64,000 bases of DNA, from positions 1 through 64,000 of the forward strand of contig JANTHJ010000002.1 of assembly GCA_024762475.1 (NCBI GenBank), read 5' to 3'. The notes below the pieces were generated by a model, which was not told the DNA's origin, did not search any database, and worked only from the letters and a program-made list of their open reading frames with translations. The DNA is from Chromatiales bacterium. GTDB lineage: Bacteria > Pseudomonadota > Gammaproteobacteria > Chromatiales > Chromatiaceae. Made by a program: the position numbers and the translations under genes. How positions within the stretch are numbered: the first letter of the stretch is position 1; each line of letters begins with the position of its first letter. Below, piece by piece: positions 3,249-19,583 of the stretch.

Positions 3249-4514
3249 ATGACCCTGCTTGCCGTTGGCCTCAACCACACCACCGCCCCGGTTTCGATCC
3301 GGGAGAGGGTCACTTTCGGCCCCGATATCGTGGTCGGGGCGCTGCGCAGCCTGCGCGAGCGGCCCGGTGTGAGCGAGGCGGTGATCCTGTCCACCTGCAA
3401 CCGCACCGAGCTGTATTGCTGCGTACAGGAGGATCAGGCAGAGCAGGTCAAATACTGGATGGCGGAGTTTCACGGGCTGGTGGTCAACGACCTGTCACCC
3501 TACCTTTACCAACACCGCGATGACGACGCAGTTGCCCATCTGCTGTCGGTGGCCTGCGGGCTGGACTCGCTGGTGCTGGGTGAGCCACAGATCCTCGGGC
3601 AGGTGAAGCAGGCCTTTCAGACCGCGACCGACGCGGGCCATACTGGCAAGACCCTCAAGCGTCTGTTCCAGCATACCTTCAACACCGCCAAGCAGGTGCG
3701 CACCGATACCGCTATCGGCGACAGCCCCGTCTCGGTGGCCTTTGCGGCAGTCAGCCTGGCGCGCCAGATATTCTCTGACCTGAGCGAGCAGACCGCGCTG
3801 TTGATCGGCGCCGGAGAGACCATCGAACTGGCCGCGCGACATCTGCATCAGCACGGAGTGGGCCGTATCATCGTCGCCAACCGCACCGTCTCGCGTGCGC
3901 GGGACCTCGCCGAGGCGTTCACCGGCTATGCGATCGGCCTGACCGAGCTCTCGGCCCACCTCGCCGAGGCCGACATCGTCATCGCCTCCACCGCCAGCCC
4001 GCTGCCGGTGCTGGGCAAGGGGACAGTAGAGCGCGCGCTCAAGCAGCGCCGCCACCGCCCGGTCTTCATGGTGGACATCGCGGTACCGCGCGATATCGAG
4101 CCCGAGGTGGGCGAGCTGCGCGACATCTATCTGTATACGGTCGACGACCTGCAGGAGGTGATCCAGGAGAACCTGCAGTCCCGCCAGGAGGCGGCCGAGC
4201 AAGCACGCGAGATCATCGATTTCCAGGTACGCGAATTCCGCGCCTGGCTGGGCTCACTGGACGCAGTGGACCTTATCCAGGACTATCGCGCCAATGCCGA
4301 GGCGATTCGCGACGAGGTCCTGGCCAAGGCCCAGCGCATGCTCGACAACGGCAAGGATCCGCAGGAGATCCTCGAATTCCTCGCCAACACCCTGACCAAC
4401 AAGCTGCTGCACACCCCCAGCACCCAGTTGCGCCTGGCCGGCAGCAGCGGCCAGCACGAGCTGCTGGATGCCGCCAACACCCTGTTCCAGCTCGGTCACG
4501 ACAGCGGCGCCTGA
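3249..4514 (+). CDS. hemA: Glutamyl-tRNA reductase
   Basis: MTLLAVGLNHTTAPVSIRERV, STCNRTELYC, GLDSLVLGEPQILGQVK, GAGETIELAARHL. Confidence 0.97.
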   Translation: MTLLAVGLNHTTAPVSIRERVTFGPDIVVGALRSLRERPGVSEAVILSTCNRTELYCCVQEDQAEQVKYWMAEFHGLVVNDLSPYLYQHRDDDAVAHLLSVACGLDSLVLGEPQILGQVKQAFQTATDAGHTGKTLKRLFQHTFNTAKQVRTDTAIGDSPVSVAFAAVSLARQIFSDLSEQTALLIGAGETIELAARHLHQHGVGRIIVANRTVSRARDLAEAFTGYAIGLTELSAHLAEADIVIASTASPLPVLGKGTVERALKQRRHRPVFMVDIAVPRDIEPEVGELRDIYLYTVDDLQEVIQENLQSRQEAAEQAREIIDFQVREFRAWLGSLDAVDLIQDYRANAEAIRDEVLAKAQRMLDNGKDPQEILEFLANTLTNKLLHTPSTQLRLAGSSGQHELLDAANTLFQLGHDSGA

Positions 4515-11755: not shown

Positions 11756-11787
11756 GGTTCAGTGCCTCATTGGGCTATGTGCAATTT

Positions 11788-11912
11788 TTTCACCACGAAG
11801 AGCACGAAGAGCACGAAGAGCACGAAGTTTTAATGGTCGCACGGCTCCAGCAATAGACGTGATCCAAGAACCTTCGTGTCCTTTGTGTTCTTTGTGGTTC
11901 AAGATTTTCAAA
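11788..11912. repeat. Palindromic CACGAAG-type repeat, copy A
   Basis: TTTCACCACGAAGAGCACGAAG... to ...CCTTCGTGTCCTTTGTGTTCTTTGTGGTTCAAGATTTTCAAA; ends are imperfect inverted repeats; near-identical to copy B. Confidence 0.85.
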
Positions 11913-11969
11913 GCTCCTGCTCTGATCTACCCGCGTAGTTTCAGTGCTGCTCTCGGTAACGTGCGATTG

Positions 11970-12085
11970 TTTCACCACGAAGAACACGAAGAGCACAAAG
12001 TTTTATTGGTCGCACGGATCCGGCAATGGACGTCATCCAAGAACCTTCGTGTTCTTTGTGTTCTTTGTGGTTCAAGATTTTCAAA
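11970..12085. repeat. Palindromic CACGAAG-type repeat, copy B
   Basis: TTTCACCACGAAGAACACGAAGAGCACAAAG... to ...CCTTCGTGTTCTTTGTGTTCTTTGTGGTTCAAGATTTTCAAA; direct copy of 11788-11912, running into the gatA stop codon. Confidence 0.85.
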
Positions 12086-13532
12086 ACCCCGCCGGCACCT
12101 GCCGATGCCAGTCGGTCTCGCGCTGTATCTGGTGCGCCACGTTCAGCAGGCGCGCCTCTTCGAAATGGTTGCCGATCATCTGGAAGCCGGTGGGCAGGCC
12201 CTCGGCCGGGGGCGCCGGAATCGAAATCGCCGGCAGCCCCGCCAGATTGACCGCGATGGTGTAGATGTCCTGCAGATACATCGAGACCGGATCGTCGGTC
12301 TTGTCGCCCAGCGGAAAGGCGGTGCCCGGCGCAGTGGGAGTAACGATCAGGTCGACCCGCTCGAAGGCGCTGCGGAAATCCTGGGCAATCAGCTGGCGTA
12401 CCTGCTGCGCCTTCAGATAATAGGCATCGTAGTACCCCGCCGAGAGGGCATAGGTGCCGATCAGAATCCGCCGCTTCACCTCGGCACCGAAGCCCTCCGA
12501 GCGTGAGCGCTTGTACAGGTCTTCCAGGTCCTTGGGATCCTCGCAGCGATGGCCGAAACGCACACCGTCGAAGCGTGACAGATTGGATGAGCACTCCGCC
12601 GGGGCGACCACATAATAGGCCGGCACCGATAGATGGGCATTCGGCAGACTGATCTCGATGACCTCGACCCCCTGCCGCTTCAGCTCCCCCAGCACCGCCT
12701 CGGTGGCGGCCGCCACGCCGCTGTCCAGCCCCTCCTGCATGAACTCGCGGACCAGACCTACCTTGAGGCCCGCCAGGGGGTGCTCGAGGGCGGCGGCATA
12801 GTCATCTACCGGGCGGTCGACGCTGGTCGAGTCCCGCTCGTCGAATCCGGCCATACCCGAGAGCAGCAGGGCCGCATCCTCGGCGCTGCGGGCCATGGGC
12901 CCTGCCTGGTCGAGCGACGAGGCAAAGGCAATCATGCCCCAACGCGAACAACGGCCATAGGTGGGCTTGAGCCCGGTGATGCCGGTCAGTGCCGCCGGCT
13001 GCCGGATCGAGCCCCCGGTATCGGTTCCAGTAGCCGCTGGCGCCAGCCGTGCCGCCACTGCGGCCGCCGAACCACCGGAAGACCCTCCGGGCACCCGGCT
13101 GCTATCCCACGGGTTGCGCACCGGTCCATAGTAGCTGGTCTCGTTGGAAGAGCCCATCGCGAACTCGTCCATGTTGGTCTTGCCCAGCATCACCATACCG
13201 GCCTGTGCGAGATTGGTGACCACGGCGGCATCGTAGGGCGAGACAAAATTGTCCAGCATGAACGAACCGCAGCTGGTGCGCACATCCTGGGTGCAGAAGA
13301 TATCCTTGTGCGCCAGGGGGATACCGGTGAGCGGACCGGCCTCTCCGGCGGCGATCCGCGCATCGGCCGCCTCGGCCTGGGCCAGGGCCTGCTCCTCGGT
13401 GACCGTGATGAAGCTGTTGAGTCGCCCGTCCAGGGCCGCGATCCGGTCCAGGAAGTGCCGGGTCAGCTCCACACTGGAGAATTCCCCGCCGGCCAGGCCG
13501 GTAGAGAGCTGCGCAAGGGTCTTGTCATGCAT
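12081..13532 (-). CDS. gatA: Asp/Glu-tRNA amidotransferase subunit A
   Basis: Amidase signature [33 protein letters not shown]; start at MHDKTLAQL. Confidence 0.97.
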
Positions 13533-14071: not shown

Positions 14072-15127
<1,056 letters not shown>

Positions 15128-15156
15128 GTGGGACCGTCTGACCGGAGGGCATTGCC

Positions 15157-16062
15157 ATCAAGCCGATCTTTGCACAGGGCCCGAGCCAGACCACCCGGGT
15201 CTTGCTCGCGGTCGTGCTGTCGATCCTGCTGATGGCAGTAGACCAGCAGTTCCAGCAACTGCAGCGCATCCGCGGCATGCTGGCCTTCGTCACCTACCCA
15301 TTGCAGGCACTCGCCGAAGCACCGGTCAGCCTCGCGCGCTGGATCAGCGAGGTGACGGCGTCGCATAACGAGCTCCTCGACGAGAACCGGCACCTGCACA
15401 ACGAAAATCTCAAGGCGCGCGCAGAGCTGCAGCAGCTGGAGAGCCTGCGCGCGGAGAACCTGCGGTTACGCAACCTGCTGGATGCCTCGTACAAGGTGGG
15501 TGACCGCATCCTGATTGCCGAGCTGTCCGCGGTCGATCTGGACCCGTATCGTCAGCAGGTAATGATCAACAAGGGCTCGAGCTCGGGCGTGTTCGTGGGC
15601 CAGCCGGTGCTCGATGCCAACGCGGTGATGGGCCAGGTGGTGCAGACCACCCCCTTCTCGGCAACGGTACTGCTCATCACCGACCCCAGCCACTCGATCC
15701 CGGTGCAGGTGCTGCGCAACGGCCTGCGCACCATCGCGGTGGGCACCGGCCGCATCAACGAGCTCTCCCTGCCCTATCTGCCCACCAACTCGGACATCCG
15801 GGTCGATGACAAGCTGGTTACCTCTGGCCTGGGCGGCAAGTTTCCGCCAGGCTATCCGGTCGCCACGGTGACCAGGGTGGACCGTTCGCCGGACAATGCC
15901 TTTGCCCGGATCATCGCCACCCCGACCGCTCATCTCGACCGCAGCCGCGAGGTCCTGCTGGTTTGGTCGGTCCCCAGCAAACCGGCCATCCCGGACGAGG
16001 AAGTCCCTGAACAGGACAGTGACGCCACGCAGCCCGACTCGTTCGGCGAGGGTTCGCCGTGA
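15157..16062 (+). CDS. mreC: Rod shape-determining protein MreC, probable ATC start
   Basis: MreC body (VMINKGSSSGVFVGQPVLD, VTSGLGGKFPPGYPVA). In-frame upstream ATC AAG CCG ATC TTT GCA CAG GGC CCG AGC aligns with the canonical N-terminus MKPIFxxGPS; SD GGAGGG at 15144-15149. Confidence 0.9.
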   Translation: MKPIFAQGPSQTTRVLLAVVLSILLMAVDQQFQQLQRIRGMLAFVTYPLQALAEAPVSLARWISEVTASHNELLDENRHLHNENLKARAELQQLESLRAENLRLRNLLDASYKVGDRILIAELSAVDLDPYRQQVMINKGSSSGVFVGQPVLDANAVMGQVVQTTPFSATVLLITDPSHSIPVQVLRNGLRTIAVGTGRINELSLPYLPTNSDIRVDDKLVTSGLGGKFPPGYPVATVTRVDRSPDNAFARIIATPTAHLDRSREVLLVWSVPSKPAIPDEEVPEQDSDATQPDSFGEGSP

Positions 16063-16538
16063 ACGGACGCGGCCTCGGTGTCATCTGGCTGACCTTTGGC
16101 GTGGCGTTGCTGCTGATCATATTGCCGCTGCCAGAGTGGGCACGTCCACTGCGCCCGCAGTGGGTGACTCTGGTGCTGATCTATTGGTGTCTGGCCCTGC
16201 CGCATCGCATCAGCGTTGGCACCGGCTTCGTGCTCGGCCTGCTGCTGGATGTGCTCACCGGGACCCTACTGGGCCAACACGCCCTGGGGCTGTCCCTGGT
16301 GGCCTACCTCGCGGTGCAACTTCACGCCCGAATCCGGGTCTTTCCCTTGTGGCAGCAGGCACTCGCGGTGCTGGTGCTGCTGACGATGGAGCAGATTCTC
16401 TCCTTCTGGGTGATGGCGATCATCGGACAGAGGCCCCCGGGCCTGCAATACTGGGCGATTCCGCTGATCGGCGCCCTGCTCTGGCCCTGGGCCTTCGTGA
16501 CCCTGCGCAATATCCGCCGGCATTTCAAGGTGACCTGA
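16059..16538 (+). CDS. mreD: Rod shape-determining protein MreD
   Basis: Small hydrophobic protein directly after mreC (GTG start overlapping the mreC stop). Confidence 0.93.
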   Translation: MNGRGLGVIWLTFGVALLLIILPLPEWARPLRPQWVTLVLIYWCLALPHRISVGTGFVLGLLLDVLTGTLLGQHALGLSLVAYLAVQLHARIRVFPLWQQALAVLVLLTMEQILSFWVMAIIGQRPPGLQYWAIPLIGALLWPWAFVTLRNIRRHFKVT

Positions 16539-16545
16539 ACGACGC

Positions 16546-18447
16546 ATGCAGATCAAGGACCATATCCGCGAGGAACAGGCCTTTCTCGGGCGCGCCGTCG
16601 TGTCGGGACTGCTGGTGATCATGGCCCTGCTGGCATTGGGTGCACGCCTGTTCCAGCTACAGGTGGTCGAACACGATCACTTCACTACCCTGTCGAAGGA
16701 CAATCGGGTCAAGCTGCGCCCTCTGCCCCCGACACGCGGCCTGATCTATGACCGCAGTGGCGTGCTGTTGGCACAGAACCGACCCGCCTACAGCCTGGAG
16801 CTGATTCCCGAGCAGGTAAAGGACGTGGAGGGTACGCTCGAGCGCCTGTCCCGATATATCGAGATCGATGCCGATGATCGCGAGCGCTTCGACCGCCTGC
16901 GCCGCCGCAAGCGGCGTTTCGACAGCGTTCCCATCCGCGTCAACCTGGACCCCGAGGAGGCCGCCCGCTTCGCGGTGGTGCGCCACCTGTTCCCGGGGGT
17001 GGATATCAAGGCCCAGCTGCTGCGCCACTATCCCTTCGCCGCGGCGACCTCACACCTGCTGGGCTATGTGGGGCGCATCAGCACCCGCGACCTGGAAACT
17101 ATCGATACGTCGAACTACGCCGGCACCAGCCACATCGGCAAAACCGGCCTGGAGAAGAGCTACGAGGCAGTCCTGCACGGAGAGGTGGGCGTGCAGCAGG
17201 TCGAGGTCAACTCGGTCGGCCGGGTCGTAAGGGTGTTGGAGGAGACGCCGCCCGAACCGGGCCAGGATCTGCACCTGCACCTGGATATCGGCCTTCAGCG
17301 AATCGCCCTGGAGGCCCTGGGCGACTACAATGGCGCGGTGGTCGCGATGGACCCGCGAAACGGGGGCATCCTCGCCCTGGCCAGCAAGCCCGGCTACAAC
17401 CCCAACCTGTTCGTCGAGGGCATCAGCCGGCGCGACTACAAGGCCCTGCAGGACAATCACGACCGTCCGCTCTACGACCGCGCCTTGCGCGGCCAGTATC
17501 CGCCGGGCTCGACCATCAAGCCGTTCATCGGCCTGGCAGGCCTCGAAACCGGCACCATCCGCTATGACACGACCTACTACTGCCCCGGCTACTTCCAGCT
17601 GCCCGGCCACGAGCACAAGTACCGCGACTGGAAGAAGAGTGGCCACGGCCCGGTCGATCTGGACATTGCCATTACCCAGTCATGCGATGTCTTCTACTAC
17701 AAGCTGGCGCACAACATGGGTATCGATGCCATGAGCAGCTATCTGGCCAATTTCGGCTTCGGCCGCCGCACCGGCATCGACTTGGTGGGCGAGTCCAGGG
17801 GGATACTGCCATCGAGGGAATGGAAGCGGCGCAACAAGCACCAGCCCTGGTACCCTGGCGAGACCATCATTGCCGGGATCGGACAGGGCTATTTCCTCAC
17901 CACCCCTCTGCAGCTGGCCGCCGCCACTGCGGCAATCGCCAATGGCGGCCACCTGGTACAGCCCCATGTGGTGGACTATCTGCAGACCCGGGGCAGCAAG
18001 GAGCGTATCCCCATCCCCCGGCATGACGAGCCCATCCCTGTTGTCTCCCAGGCAGACTGGGACGACGTCCGGGTTGCGATGGAGCACGTGGTCCAGGGCG
18101 CACGCGGCACCGCTCGCCGGATCCGCTCCGTGGCCTATCACATGGCCGGCAAGACCGGCACTGCCCAGGTCTTTACCGTGGGCCAGGAGGAGGAATACGA
18201 GGAGGAGAAGGTCTCCCACAAGAACCGCGACCACGCTCTATTCATCGCCTATGCGCCGACGGAGGATCCGCAGATTGCGATTGCAGTGGTAGTGGAGAAC
18301 GGCGGGCACGGCGGAACCACCGCCGCGCCGGTCGCTCGCAAGGTAATGGATGCCTGGCTGCTGCCCCGGCTGTATGGCTCCGACGCCAAGATCGCGAACG
18401 ACGTTACGGACGCGCCGACGACTTCCACCCCGAGAGACGGCACATGA
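16546..18447 (+). CDS. mrdA: Penicillin-binding protein 2
   Basis: [18 protein letters not shown], transpeptidase [10 protein letters not shown] and AGKTGTAQV. Confidence 0.97.
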
Positions 18448-19583
18448 GCCTTCACCCCGCCGAGCTGGGCGACCTGACTCCCAGCGACCCCAATCGCCGC
18501 CAGGGTGTGCTGGCACGCTACCATCTCGACCTGCCTCTGCTGGTGGGACTGTTGCTGCTCAGTACCTACGGGCTGGTGGTGCTCTATTCGGCCAGCGGGC
18601 AGGATATCGGACAGGTCGAAAGACAGCTGCTGCGATTCCTTTTGGCCTTCGGTGTCATGGTGGGCGTGGCACAGATCCGCCCCGATCAACTCAGGCGCTG
18701 GAGCCCTTGGCTGTATCTGGTCGGCACCCTGTTGCTGGTACTGGTACTGGTGATTGGCGATGTCGGCAAGGGGGCGCAGCGCTGGCTGGATCTGGGGGTG
18801 ATCCGATTCCAGCCCTCGGAGATGGTCAAGCTGGCCGTGCCGATGATGCTCGCCTGGTACCTGTACGACAAGCCCTTAGCTCCAAGCGTGAGACATCTGG
18901 GCGTGGCGGTCGTATTGATGGCGGTGCCGGTGCTGCTCATCGCCAAGCAACCGGATTTAGGCACCTCGCTGCTGGTAGCAAGCGCGGGCGTGTTCGTGCT
19001 GTTTCTCGCCGGCATCAGCTGGCAGCTCATCGCCGGCCTGTTCACCGCGGCGGCTGCCGCCGCGCCCATCGCCTGGCACTTCATGCGCGACTACCAGAAG
19101 CAGCGGGTGCTCACCTTCCTCGACCCCGAAAAGGACCCCCTTGGCGCCGGCTATCACATCATCCAGTCCAAGATTGCCATCGGATCGGGGGGTCTGTGGG
19201 GCAAGGGCTGGCTCAACGGCACCCAGTCGCAACTCGATTTCCTGCCGGAACGCCACACCGATTTCATCTTTGCGGTGTTGGCCGAAGAGCTCGGCCTGGT
19301 CGGGGTGAGCCTGCTACTCGCCCTGTACCTGTTCATTATCCTGCGCGGACTGTATATCGCAACCCGCGCACAAGACACCTACGGGCGCCTGCTCGCCGGA
19401 TCACTGACCCTGGTATTCTTCGTCTACCTGCTGGTCAATGTCGGCATGGTGTCGGGCCTGCTGCCGGTGGTCGGCGTACCGTTGCCGCTGATCAGTTATG
19501 GCGGCACCTCGCTGGTGACCCTGATGGCAGGCTTCGGTATGCTGATGTCGATACACACCCACCGCAAGCTGCTGCCCCGATGA
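18444..19583 (+). CDS. rodA: Rod shape-determining protein RodA
   Basis: SEDS family: [42 protein letters not shown]. Confidence 0.97.

Follow-up and report, generated by a model that had tools for sequence, protein, structure and literature searches.

The window (the whole 64,000-nucleotide stretch of DNA that was analysed) carries a core cell-shape operon, in which the placement of mreC between mreB and mreD was confirmed by profile matches of its neighbours. The features concerned are as follows.

14078..15127, plus strand: mreB, the first gene of the operon, an ATG-start open reading frame (TIGR00904, E 1.3e-160)
15139..15141, plus strand: in-frame TGA closing the mreC frame on its 5' side (read from the sequence)
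15144..15149, plus strand: Shine-Dalgarno element GGAGGG, 7 nt before the ATC (read from the sequence)
15157..15159, plus strand: ATC start codon of mreC (ATC, ATT or ATA conserved in relatives and the class)
15157..16062, plus strand: mreC coding sequence from the ATC, 301 amino acids counting the initiator (TIGR00219, E 6.9e-60; translation)
15202..15204, plus strand: TTG, codon 16, the first canonical in-frame codon and a likely false start (not conserved in relatives)
16059..16538, plus strand: mreD, with a GTG start overlapping the mreC stop as GTGA (TIGR03426, E 2.1e-37)
16546..18447, plus strand: mrdA (PBP2), ATG start (TIGR03423, E 1.3e-239)
18444..19583, plus strand: mrdB (rodA), with an ATG start overlapping mrdA (TIGR02210, E 3e-138)

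After the TGA, the mreC frame reads CCG GAG GGC ATT GCC ATC AAG CCG ATC TTT GCA CAG GGC CCG AGC. Because the TGA at 15139-15141 closes this frame, a start 5' of it is impossible. None of the five codons from the stop to the ATC is canonical, and no ATG, GTG or TTG occurs in the mreC frame between the stop at 15139 and the TTG at 15202, where the listed in-frame mreC open reading frame opens. The original prediction had proposed that mreC starts at the ATC instead. When read from this codon, the protein scored 202.6 bits against TIGR00219 (cut-off 92.75), with MreC residues 5-281 aligned to positions 3-283 of 283. As the match begins at residue 5 on position 3, the N-terminus read from the ATC belongs to MreC; this fit, together with conservation of the ATC among relatives, bears the proposal out. 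The GGAGGG that the prediction placed 7 nt before the ATC was confirmed from the letters, and the E. coli N-terminus with which it had compared the protein does read ATG-KPIFSRGPS in K-12. It had also dismissed the ATT at 15151-15153, which lies between GGAGGG and the ATC in the same frame. We likewise rejected this ATT as a start, since a single base separates it from the Shine-Dalgarno element and relatives do not conserve it.

A structured RNA element at the mreC start was considered and rejected: no Rfam family was found in the window, and mRNA folding around the start was no better than that of shuffled sequences (z -0.82). No promoter or terminator was detected by consensus between mreB and mreC. 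Elsewhere in the window, a direct repeat of 115 nt with 91% identity and CACGAAGAG-rich units occupies 11758-12090, just downstream of gatA (minus strand).

Next, we examined the pattern of conservation around the ATC in nine close relatives. All nine have ATC at this position, and each of the 11 preceding codons varies freely at the amino acid level. Along mreC codons 2-15, by comparison, variation falls on 2 first, 2 second and 11 third positions, and only 2 of the 14 amino acids change. Protein-type conservation thus opens at codon 2 and is missing upstream, indicating that translation begins at the ATC. These data also bear on initiation at TTG 15202, or at the equivalent GTG or ATG codons of relatives, with the conserved stretch before it left untranslated. 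TTG 15202 is the first canonical codon, and the deposited annotation of Pseudomonas aeruginosa mreC opens at a comparable codon 17. However, conservation over codons 2-15 is of the protein type, and KP[IL]FxxGPS is also found in genomes, E. coli included, with an ATG directly before the motif. Furthermore, the spacing of the Shine-Dalgarno element suits an ATH codon (ATC, ATT or ATA) rather than the downstream one, and inspection of the sequence revealed no Shine-Dalgarno element before TTG 15202. The downstream canonical codon also varies in position and identity among relatives, which have GTG, CTG or ATG at the place of the TTG, and a start there would cost the protein its best-conserved residues. 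We regard a downstream start, which the prediction had also judged unsuitable, as highly improbable.

The P. aeruginosa record (L351, CP123788.1) deserves separate mention. By alignment, its mreC starts at ATC (region 219-267); the sequence there is TAGGAGCGGATC-ATC-AAACCGCTATTC, with AAACCG directly after the ATC, and the deposited annotation in this one record begins mreC at GTG codon 17, 48 bases downstream of the ATC. The record itself, 1131 bases of linear sequence labelled as a plasmid, is probably a chromosomal fragment. The starts of mreC would be misannotated in this way wherever pipelines accept only ATG, GTG and TTG, although we have seen it in a single P. aeruginosa record. Constructs or fusions built from a misannotated start would lack the cytoplasmic tail.

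Alternatively, translation could start further upstream or in another frame and enter mreC by readthrough or frameshifting, so that the isoleucine codon would be internal. A minority of loci do possess a canonical in-frame codon upstream. Against this, an in-frame stop lies five codons 5' of the ATC here, an upstream canonical start is absent from most loci, and the codons 5' of the ATC are unconserved. In addition, if the isoleucine were internal, drift to valine or leucine would be expected, yet class-wide the first two bases of the start remain AT and the third is seldom G. An upstream origin is thus extremely unlikely. Although no protein or ribosome data stand behind the start call, which rests on sequence comparison, we consider it close to certain that mreC starts at ATC 15157-15159, the only start that keeps the conserved N-terminus KPIFAQGPS.

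To follow this start in related loci, we located it through the MreC N-terminus and read the codon preceding KP[IL]F. The first 103 loci, mostly from Chromatiaceae and Sedimenticola relatives and with some genomes present twice, gave ATC in 75, ATT in 18 and ATG in 8, and two could not be placed. We then applied a strict rule to a class-wide sample: an ATH had to lie near the anchor, and the frame had to be free of canonical codons between the preceding stop (or the edge of the available sequence) and a point a few codons beyond the anchor. It was satisfied by 123 genomes from 58 of 119 families; 25 further genomes possessed an ATH near the anchor together with some canonical codon elsewhere in frame. 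A second count was limited to starts no more than two codons from the anchor, with duplicates removed and poorly alignable N-termini excluded. It yielded ATC 72, ATT 49, ATA 23, ATG 30, GTG 2 and TTG 2, so that ATH accounts for 144 of 178 placed starts and is found in 65 of the 84 GTDB families with a called start. Since canonical starts predominate among the excluded, poorly alignable genomes, 65/84 overstates the share of ATH in the class as a whole. Roughly one in four families with a called start has ATG, GTG or TTG only; these families and E. coli indicate that the weak start is not indispensable. The call to check relatives for the ATC was thus answered affirmatively: every genome examined from the same genus has ATC, and ATC, ATT and ATA together make up most starts in the class as sampled. 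Outside the class no sign of an ATH start was found, all 16 genomes of other classes in the phylum having a canonical start upstream of the aligned stretch.

Other genes of the same loci served as controls, and these nearly always have a canonical start. When 8 codons around the aligned start were allowed, mreC lacked a canonical start in 62 of 70 cases, compared with 4 of 69 for mreD, 0 of 64 for mreB and 0 of 66 for mrdA.

The window comes from a draft assembly of 190 contigs, in which a sequencing or assembly error could in principle have turned a true ATG into ATC. The ATC is, however, common to complete genomes, cultured isolates and P. aeruginosa. The same codon is present in independent genomes, among them the single-contig G003 and G006 and cultured isolates of Thiocapsa, Marichromatium and Allochromatium. 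Agreement among independent genomes of this kind, with named strains in culture among them, excludes such an error.

Several loci depart from the common arrangement. L185 and L176 (family f110) have GTT at the mreC start position (cggaggttcgcc GTT AAG in L185) and no ATH there, and it is possible that mreC starts at GTT in both. In L088 (Candidatus Achromatium palustre) the usual position is occupied by ACC, and no start could be assigned. In four loci of family f120 (L159, L161, L180 and L197), the N-terminus is lengthened by a conserved ATA or ATC situated a few codons 5' of the usual position, the contexts being ATA GCC CCG GCC AAG and ATC AGA AGC GAG AAG. An apparent MreB-MreC fusion in L122, a 347-codon open frame, turned out to be a wrong frame of mreB and was discarded.

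We further compared the Shine-Dalgarno elements of the two kinds of start by searching for a core 4-10 nt upstream of the start. A core precedes 132 of 144 ATH starts and 6 of 34 NTG starts (Fisher p = 1.3e-17), the frequency in background stretches being 55 of 574 (about 10%). Canonical-start mreC genes thus usually have no Shine-Dalgarno element. When kinship was taken into account by independent pairs, the association had 3.7 for and 0.1 against, of 7 pairs, which is in the right direction, the number of pairs being too small for significance. A weak codon with a strong Shine-Dalgarno element, or a strong codon with a weak one, may be two arrangements that would both hold output down.

The third base of the start was considered next. 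ATG makes up 17% of ATN starts, whereas G occupies 38.5% of the fourfold sites in these genes (p = 1.7e-9); the test makes no correction for the tree, and this p value is too strong, as the sequences are related. A tree built from 134 MreC proteins requires no fewer than 11 changes between ATH and NTG and no fewer than 30 changes of the codon, indicating that the third base moves freely among C, T and A yet is seldom G. Since G is avoided at the third base in this class, the weak mreC start is probably maintained by selection, as far as can be judged from such comparisons. It remains conceivable that the ATH codon is a true start without regulation, a historical weak start compensated by its Shine-Dalgarno element, with normal MreC output and no notable effect of IF3. 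The strong Shine-Dalgarno element in 132 of 144 cases is compatible with such compensation, and lineages with ATG, GTG or TTG manage without ATH. A single base change, however, would restore ATG, and G is under-represented despite a third base that turned over in 30 changes on the tree, which suggests selection against a strong start. We therefore regard a start without regulation as unlikely, while keeping it as a serious possibility.

The reading that we prefer, at a probability of roughly 0.8, is that ATC 15157 is an authentic AUH start used by the normal initiator tRNA behind a strong Shine-Dalgarno element, giving low, IF3-sensitive production of MreC and MreD relative to MreB; the dose and the role of IF3 are inferred. 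Ordinary initiator tRNA, with its CAU anticodon, would insert formyl-Met at the ATC despite a mismatched third base. The strong and well-placed Shine-Dalgarno element would bring in the 30S subunit and offset the weak codon, and the mismatch would let only a small share of initiations pass IF3 proofreading. MreC output would then be low from a message that makes much MreB. MreD would be low too if its translation is coupled to that of MreC through the NTGA overlap. This overlap between mreC and mreD is present in 85 of 91 loci with an ATH-start mreC, making translational coupling of MreD to MreC probable. Output of both proteins should rise when IF3 is scarce. That the weak start is kept across Gammaproteobacteria suggests that MreC production is deliberately kept low by the cell.

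The components needed for such control were sought in this genome and its relatives. The genome encodes its own IF3, and its infC (L302, contig C39 of assembly G000, near 4301) has an ATC start with GGAGG upstream; in nearly all relatives read, infC starts with ATC, ATT or ATA. The exact anticodon arm of the initiator tRNA (GGGCTCATAACCC) is absent from the incomplete assembly of this genome and present in the four relatives checked. Relatives carry a normal CAU initiator tRNA, and the missing gene probably reflects an assembly gap. A regulatory role of the mreC start as in infC, which the prediction had suggested, is still an inference, and it fits with the ATC of infC in the same genome and with a Shine-Dalgarno pattern that suits a selected weak start. 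In a reconstituted system with AUU and a CAU anticodon, full-length product falls as IF3 rises (PMC10158994), and IF3 represses the GTC start of sigR in vivo (PMC5472188). Changing the AUU of E. coli infC to AUG abolished autocontrol, according to work cited in PMC5472188.

PBP2 activity is reported to be under the control of the balance between MreC and MreD (PMC7793260), which gives practical interest to any mechanism setting the amounts of these two proteins. A further proposal is that the level of MreC and MreD, and hence elongasome activity, is tied to initiation fidelity in many Gammaproteobacteria, so that both proteins go up when free IF3 falls relative to ribosomes. We hold this extension to be doubtful. 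If it is true, the weak start would be a conserved link from translation capacity to cell-wall elongation, lost or replaced by a weak Shine-Dalgarno element in E. coli and others.

To our knowledge, very few bacterial genes start with AUH. The classic conserved case is infC, and E. coli pcnB has an AUU start, a non-canonical AUH like that of mreC in a different gene and a different pathway. AUH starts as such are thus known already, and it is the deeply conserved, unusually widespread mreC case that appears to be new; no report of a non-canonical mreC start was found in the open-access literature, subscription journals not being covered. A second AUH gene, found in most sampled Gammaproteobacterial families with a callable start and belonging to a core cell-shape operon, would mark weak starts as a stable regulatory device. 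In Streptomyces sigR, too, the start is non-canonical, belongs to one gene of an operon and was misannotated in databases; it sets the dose relative to a partner and is IF3-sensitive, both of which are inferred for mreC (PMC5472188). It differs in using GTC rather than ATH, in preceding its partner rsrA and in being reported for Streptomyces only. E. coli mreC shares the N-terminus KPIFSRGPS and the order mreB-mreC-mreD, whereas it starts with ATG and has no strong Shine-Dalgarno element before it. In infC (IF3), as in mreC, the AUH start is deeply conserved and is preceded by a strong Shine-Dalgarno element. As infC encodes the codon-discriminating factor itself, its start closes a feedback loop, whereas MreC, a cell-shape protein, could only be a target.
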